A DNA stretch of 64,000 nucleotides, taken from NCBI RefSeq assembly GCF_011398355.1, contig NZ_AP021889.1:1178001-1242000 (forward strand), in the 5' to 3' direction. The translations under genes and the position numbers were made by a program. This document shows positions 52,567 to 58,445 of the stretch, piece by piece. The stretch is from Thiosulfatimonas sediminis. Its GTDB lineage: Bacteria > Pseudomonadota > Gammaproteobacteria > Thiomicrospirales > Thiomicrospiraceae. The notes beneath the pieces were generated by a model. It was not told where the DNA came from. It was given only the letters and a program-made list of their open reading frames with translations, and did not search any database. The first letter of the stretch is position 1, and the number at the start of each line of letters is the position of its first letter.

Positions 52567-52594
52567 TTGAGTTTGTTAATTATTTCTGTATTAT
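52567..52594 (+). promoter_or_regulatory. Possible promoter of the rhodanese gene
   Basis: TTGAGT (52567-52572) and TATTAT (52589-52594) are spaced by 16 bp. The -10 would lie inside the palindrome at 52589-52612, a geometry that suits repression. Confidence 0.4.
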
Positions 52595-52612
52595 TAGCAA
52601 CAGCTAATAATA
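52589..52612. promoter_or_regulatory. Palindrome upstream of the rhodanese gene (candidate operator)
   Basis: TATTATTAGC and GCTAATAATA form a perfect 10-bp inverted repeat with an AACA centre. Its core TATTAG-N6-CTAATA is identical in sequence and spacing to the soxB palindrome at 841-858. An RNA hairpin is an alternative reading, but it has no T-tract and is not a terminator. Confidence 0.5.
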
Positions 52613-58133: not shown

Positions 58134-58295
58134 TGGATTCTTGAAAATTGGGATTGTCGTGCTATTTATACTATTGGTTTGAAATTATTTTGAAATCAAA
58201 GGGTTAAGCGAGGCTTAATGCGTAGCTAAAAGTATTTGGTGTTAAGGGTTTTTGCGTATAGAAATAATTAATGAGTAATTAATTTATATTAATGT
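58134..58295. other. AT-rich spacer between cysS and the sRNA promoter
   Basis: No gene seen. The last 40 nt are AT-rich with an ATTAAT-GAG-TAATTAAT palindrome just upstream of the -35, which could act as an UP element. Confidence 0.35.
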
Positions 58296-58324
58296 TTGAC
58301 ATGATTAGAGAACGCTTATATACT
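58296..58324 (+). promoter_or_regulatory. Near-consensus sigma-70 promoter of the candidate sRNA
   Basis: TTGACA (58296-58301) and TATACT (58319-58324) with exactly 17 bp between. This is the best sigma-70 promoter I see in the window. No open gene starts downstream on this strand. Confidence 0.8.
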
Positions 58325-58330
58325 AAGCCC

Positions 58331-58422
58331 ATTCATGTTTCTTCATGAGTATCCTCCTCTGATTATTTCTTATGAGATAAGTTTTTTAGAACCACGGATT
58401 GGTAAGTTCCGTGGTTTTTTTT
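58331..58422 (+). ncRNA. Candidate small RNA (about 90 nt), unknown family
   Basis: A transcript starting 6-8 nt after the promoter -10 would end at the terminator stem AACCACGGA/TCCGTGGTT (58390-58416) with eight terminal T residues. Two weaker hairpins are predictable: TCATG/CATGA near 58334-58349 and CTTAT/ATAAG near 58369-58381. Between them lies an unpaired TATCCTCCTCTG, complementary to Shine-Dalgarno sequences such as GAGGAGG. This is the layout of a trans-acting sRNA. A leaderless ORF from an ATG near 58334 is possible but has no ribosome site and reads through the terminator. I cannot name a known family. Confidence 0.65.
58390..58422 (+). terminator. Rho-independent terminator of the candidate sRNA
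   Basis: A 9-bp perfect stem with a 9-nt loop and an eight-T tract. On the opposite strand there is no T-tract, so it is not the slt terminator. Confidence 0.88.
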
Positions 58423-58445
58423 GCCTATCTTTTCAGCATCTGTTC

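Follow-up and report, generated by a model that had tools for sequence, protein, structure and literature searches.

A conserved RNA gene beside cysS in a family of sulfur oxidizers: a probable trans-acting anti-Shine-Dalgarno small RNA with Sox genes as candidate targets

What is encoded between cysS and slt in Thiosulfatimonas sediminis, where a near-consensus promoter leads to an intrinsic terminator, and on what would the product act? The locus lies in a 64,000-nucleotide stretch of DNA analysed here as the window. The first-pass annotation had placed in this interval an unannotated small RNA (sRNA) gene bearing a motif complementary to Shine-Dalgarno (SD) sequences. The placement is confirmed, with promoter, structured RNA and terminator all found where expected, and inspection of open reading frames (ORFs) bears out that no credible gene lies on either strand between promoter and terminator. 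The order is cysS upstream, then the sRNA on the plus strand and the convergent slt on the minus strand (Table 1). The gene is almost certainly real, as judged by its conservation, and is presumably transcribed. Overall, the best explanation is a likely one, namely a trans-acting anti-SD sRNA that would repress Sox proteins.

Table 1. Features of the sRNA locus (positions in the window)
Feature	Positions	Strand	Basis or remarks
Sigma-70-type promoter, TTGACA-N17-TATACT	58296-58324	+	11/12 consensus match; TTGACA 58296-58301, 17-bp spacer, TATACT 58319-58324; hexamers conserved across the genus
Dyad ATTAG-N6-CTTAT occupying the spacer of the promoter; probable operator	58304-58319		Half-site conservation
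Small RNA, ~92 nt (5' end deduced from promoter position)	58331-58422	+	Fold, covariance models, covariation
Hairpin 1, AUUCAUG / CAUGAGU, loop UUUCUU	58331-58350	+	Loop and 3' arm within the invariant core
Micro-ORF ATG AGT ATC CTC CTC TGA (MSILL*)	58345-58362	+	Frame kept in all genera; read from aligned sequences
Anti-SD linker UAUCCUCCUCUG, unpaired	58350-58361	+	Invariant in 26 genus sequences
Hairpin 2	58363-58380	+	Covariation support; missing in g2 and g5
Intrinsic terminator, 11-bp hairpin + T8	58388-58422	+	Hairpin 58388-58418; stem varies with compensation, T run kept

Distribution and conservation of the gene

In 25 further genomes of the genus, a BLAST search with positions 58290-58425 gives a significant match adjoining cysS, slt or both. 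With the first covariance model, built from 26 sequences, 52 of the 63 family genomes each yield a single copy, and the refined model adds the remaining three genomes of genus g2 (other genera are likewise designated by handles). The sRNA is single-copy in these 55/63 genomes and occurs in all seven genera of the family, which covers Thiomicrorhabdus, Hydrogenovibrio, Thiomicrospira, Sulfurivirga and related MAGs. The eight other genomes are six drafts in the window's genus, one genome that is 82% complete and one of g5. A search at the level of the order drew the same 63 genomes as the family-level search, and the sRNA was not found outside the family in a 370-genome sample of the class, where the five matches all belong to family members. 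It is kept where cysS or slt is not found alongside (e.g. L062, L063 and L071).

A check proposed with the original annotation was whether promoter and core are conserved while the flanks diverge, and this is what 25 genus sequences display. The flanks have a mean pairwise identity of 0.42 (upstream of the -35 hexamer) and 0.41 (downstream of the T run). The -35 and -10 hexamers stand at 0.92 and 0.82, hairpin 1 at 0.98, the linker at 1.00, hairpin 2 at 0.93 and the T run at 0.98; the terminator stem-loop, where the variation is compensated, has 0.50. This pattern rules out chance as an explanation of the locus.

One sRNA-lacking genome (G018) contains a linker-like stretch, TATCCTACTCTGATTATT, between usp-like and tsaB-like genes (L082, near 3654). 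The partial match shows no clear promoter or terminator and is possibly a decayed copy or a chance occurrence.

RNA structure and the invariant core

For the RNA a folding energy of -26 kcal/mol is computed, with shuffled sequences at -13.6 (sd 2.67; z -4.64). Two small hairpins around an unpaired linker had been predicted, together with a terminator of 9 bp and eight T residues; the hairpins, the linker and the T8 run stand, and the terminator stem is 11 bp in the present fold. The terminator is absent from the list of the built-in scan, whose limit of 8 for the loop is exceeded by the predicted 9. In the alignment, 97% of cells are paired and 11 of the 18 pairs show two-sided changes; the covariation score is 0.232, whereas shuffled alignments score 0.090 and slid structures no more than 0.081. 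Both hairpin 2 and the terminator have covariation support. The smallest version of the sRNA, that of g2, consists of hairpin 1, the linker and the terminator alone.

The anti-SD motif is exposed as anticipated and is, moreover, invariant in the linker of the genus, with an unpaired probability mostly >0.9 for UAUCCUCCUCUG in the genus consensus. In other genera the linker varies to UAUCCUCCUUUAG (g6) and UAUCCUCUUAUGA (g2). The core that is invariant across genera, UUUCUUCAUGAGUAUCCUC(C), reaches beyond the CCTCC motif on the 5' side to include the hairpin 1 loop. Two genera, g5 and g2, have a changed 5' arm in this hairpin and an unchanged 3' arm, which indicates a constraint on the core beyond structure. 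The core complements AGGAGGATACTCATGAAGAAA exactly; as reverse complement, GGAGGATACTCATGAAGAAA, it reads as an ideal start region (SD, AUG, Lys, Lys), the complementary translation start being GGAGGA-N5-AUG-AAG-AAA. Because the core reaches 5' through the hairpin 1 loop, the likely target is the whole translation start (SD + AUG + AAG AAA). Several matches to the core pattern in unrelated phyla resemble ordinary gene starts on the opposite strand.

Predicted partners and alternative readings

An independent promoter and an intrinsic terminator with a U tail, as well as a conserved unpaired seed, characterize trans-encoded Hfq-type sRNAs, and all are found here; Hfq is encoded in 11 of 12 genomes checked, including the window's own. 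The sRNA would be transcribed from its own sigma-70 promoter, ended at its own terminator and act in trans. The loop UUUCUU, the linker UAUCCUCCUCUG and the arm between them would pair with the SD, the start codon and the first lysine codons (GGAGGA...AUGAARAA), and this pairing, probably with Hfq, would block ribosome loading on the target mRNAs. Such SD masking seems quite likely. An anti-SD motif that is exposed and invariant, in an Hfq-bearing genome, is most naturally read in this way, and there is a parallel in the alpha-r14 RNAs (PMC10746234).

In the alpha-r14 family, which includes NfeR1 of Sinorhizobium, an sRNA acting in trans masks the ribosome sites of several mRNAs with an anti-SD motif that is ultraconserved and unpaired (PMC10746234). 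A conserved unpaired anti-SD motif is common to both, together with action in trans, which is predicted for the present sRNA. The family is defined by three hairpins, all of which have CCUCCUCCC in unpaired stretches (PMC10746234), an arrangement not found here; instead, the present sRNA has a single UCCUCCUC motif in the linker and the conserved loop UUUCUU. AbcR1 and AbcR2 of alphaproteobacteria are likewise anti-SD sRNAs, which act mostly on transport and metabolic mRNAs (PMC10746234); they resemble the present sRNA in carrying anti-SD motifs, whereas bacterial class and motif differ and no homology is detected.

Candidate targets come from a pattern search in eight genomes followed by family-wide checks of orthologs. 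The pattern GGAGGATA-N1-8-ATG occurs at 46 sites in the eight genomes, against 10 for the reversed control, and recurs in orthologs of a SAXB-like gene (four genomes in three genera), soxX (three genomes) and flhF (two genomes). When the whole 20-nt core is searched in 12 genomes with ≤3 mismatches, the only matches apart from the sRNA locus itself are SoxH-like and SAXB-like starts, here and there, and a single coincidental site. The identity of soxX is certain (TIGR04485, above cut-off); in the window's genome soxY and soxZ come after it, and then another ORF, read as soxA. Over its full length the small candidate target gene gives a match to the SoxAX-binding protein model, at 28 bits against a curated cut-off of 95, and the window's own copy does not match this model; with a score so far below cut-off, the gene is called SAXB-like only.

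Family-wide, GGAGG occurs in the start regions of 48/49 SAXB-like genes and of 48/49 soxX genes in the sRNA-bearing set, compared with 4/204 of the background neighbouring genes. Median duplex energies with the linker are -12.9 (SAXB-like), -13.1 (soxX) and -7.0 (background); the p-values of this comparison are descriptive, since orthologs are not independent and a few of the 49 stem from genomes in which the RNA was not detected. The best duplex, at -28.3 kcal/mol, is formed by the SAXB-like gene of genome G011, with near-continuous pairing over the SD, AUG and lysine codons; SAXB-like pairing is weaker in the window's own genome (linker energy -10.9). In the clade without the sRNA, GGAGGA is kept in none of four SAXB-like start regions, and soxX carries AGGAGGA in two genomes (G017 and G024) and lacks it in others. 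In g2 the linker is changed to UCCUCUUAUGA, with no matching change in soxX. The most likely conserved targets would be the SAXB-like gene and soxX, the first gene of soxXYZA, which belongs to the periplasmic thiosulfate-oxidizing Sox system; for Sox genes as targets, the case is evenly balanced.

It is possible, at somewhat less than even chances, that the RNA is a general anti-SD sRNA and that its real targets are other mRNAs with strong SD sequences, such as those of envelope proteins (pal among them), flagellar flhF or transporters. The prominence of Sox genes could then reflect nothing but the strong GGAGGA SD of highly expressed genes, which soxX and the SAXB-like genes probably are. Background genes with a strong SD pair equally well with the linker, soxX and SAXB-like starts being no stronger than the four GGAGG-bearing ones (p 0.39 and 0.24; almost no power), and flhF carries GGAGGATAGATG in two genomes. 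The pal gene, previously suggested as a pairing partner, ranks only fifth among 59 start regions of the window in predicted linker pairing, and the Sox genes are better candidates. Two observations speak against a purely general role: nearly every copy of the two Sox genes has GGAGG, a motif otherwise uncommon in these genomes, and the invariant loop UUUCUU suits the AUGAARAA stretch by which SAXB-like starts are extended.

A coding function of the invariant block provides another reading, in which the transcript would be a tiny mRNA or dual-function RNA for the peptide MSILL. In g6 (CTC CTT TAG) and g2 (CTC TTA TGA) all changes in the block are synonymous or preserve the stop, the chance of such MSILL-preserving changes being ~2% by a rough, post hoc hand estimate. 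The ATG, however, has no preceding Shine-Dalgarno sequence and lies within the hairpin 1 stem, one genome reads ATG AAT (Asn), and coding does not explain why UUUCUUC upstream of the micro-ORF is equally invariant. A translated peptide is unlikely.

A role as leader or attenuator for a downstream operon is far less probable. Ile-Leu-Leu codons in a short ORF ahead of a terminator do recall amino-acid attenuators, but the sRNA persists in other gene neighbourhoods; in the window an attenuator is ruled out, since slt is convergent and no gene directly follows on the same strand. Equally improbable is an element of the opposite strand, where GGAGGATACTC ATG AAG AAA CAT GAA resembles the ideal SD and start of a small gene: this MKKHE micro-gene is not conserved, its frame ending or diverging after five codons in different genomes, and the conserved promoter, T run and terminator serve the plus strand.

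On the best reading, this anti-SD sRNA acting in trans had not been described before. In the open-access literature searched, no sRNA of Thiomicrospira-group chemoautotrophs was found, nor any that targets the Sox thiosulfate pathway. An anti-SD RNA that is present family-wide and has Sox starts as its best partners is a candidate post-transcriptional control point for sulfur oxidation in chemoautotrophs.

The promoter dyad and relation to Rfam families

The sRNA promoter is the best among five sites scored in the 56-61 kb region. The first-pass annotation had considered it constitutively strong or growth-regulated; regulation is now favoured over simple constitutivity, because the spacer holds a conserved dyad. 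In 25 genus sequences the half-sites are 0.90 and 0.93 identical and the intervening N6 merely 0.51. In its general form, ATWAG-N6-CTWAT, the dyad is present in 24 of 25 parsed genus promoters and in most of those of g3, g4 and g7, and it is absent from the sRNA promoters of g5 and g6. With zero mismatches, the combined promoter and dyad pattern matches the sRNA locus exclusively in the 63 genomes; one-mismatch matches elsewhere are about at the level of a control pattern. A dimeric regulator bound to this dyad, between the -35 and -10 hexamers, probably controls the sRNA in most genera.

Some of the dyad copies in the sRNA promoters of L003-L026 are symmetric as ATAAG...CTTAT and some as ATTAG...CTAAT, and many are mixed (ATAAG...CTAAT). 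Two symmetric versions would fit binding by a symmetric dimer.

In the window, a dyad ATTAG-N6-CTAAT also occurs at 842-857, within one of the one-mismatch matches to the combined promoter and dyad pattern (834-858), ~170 bp upstream of soxB (ORF from 1025; TIGR04486, 720.7 bits against a cut-off of 550). It is a lead only, as the chance expectation for the window is about half a dyad (hand estimate). A rhodanese-like gene (52638) has another ATTAG-N6-CTAAT dyad immediately before it (52593-52608); relatives do not conserve this dyad, which is therefore not taken as an operator and is probably due to chance.

The sox genes of Hydrogenovibrio are divided into three groups lying apart from one another (soxXYZA, soxB and soxCD), an arrangement that has been read as a hint of differential regulation (PMC6501319). 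It is tempting to propose that the sRNA coordinates scattered Sox genes by masking the soxX(YZA) and SAXB-like starts, while the dyad regulator governs both the sRNA and soxB. This extension is speculative and rather doubtful.

No Rfam family reaches its cut-off at the sRNA locus, and the sRNA is a new family for Rfam. A weak likeness on the reverse strand to STnc480 (RF02068) comprises a common CUGAUUAUUU and a CCACGG/CCGUGG hairpin; with 28 bits against a gathering score of 72, and on the opposite strand, it is judged to be chance. In E. coli STnc480 sits between allE and glxK and not near cysS. Its Rfam model appears to bear a U-tailed terminator on the reverse strand (E. coli L393, 3001-3066); in view of this terminator and of the allE-glxK placement, the deposited strand of STnc480 may be wrong.
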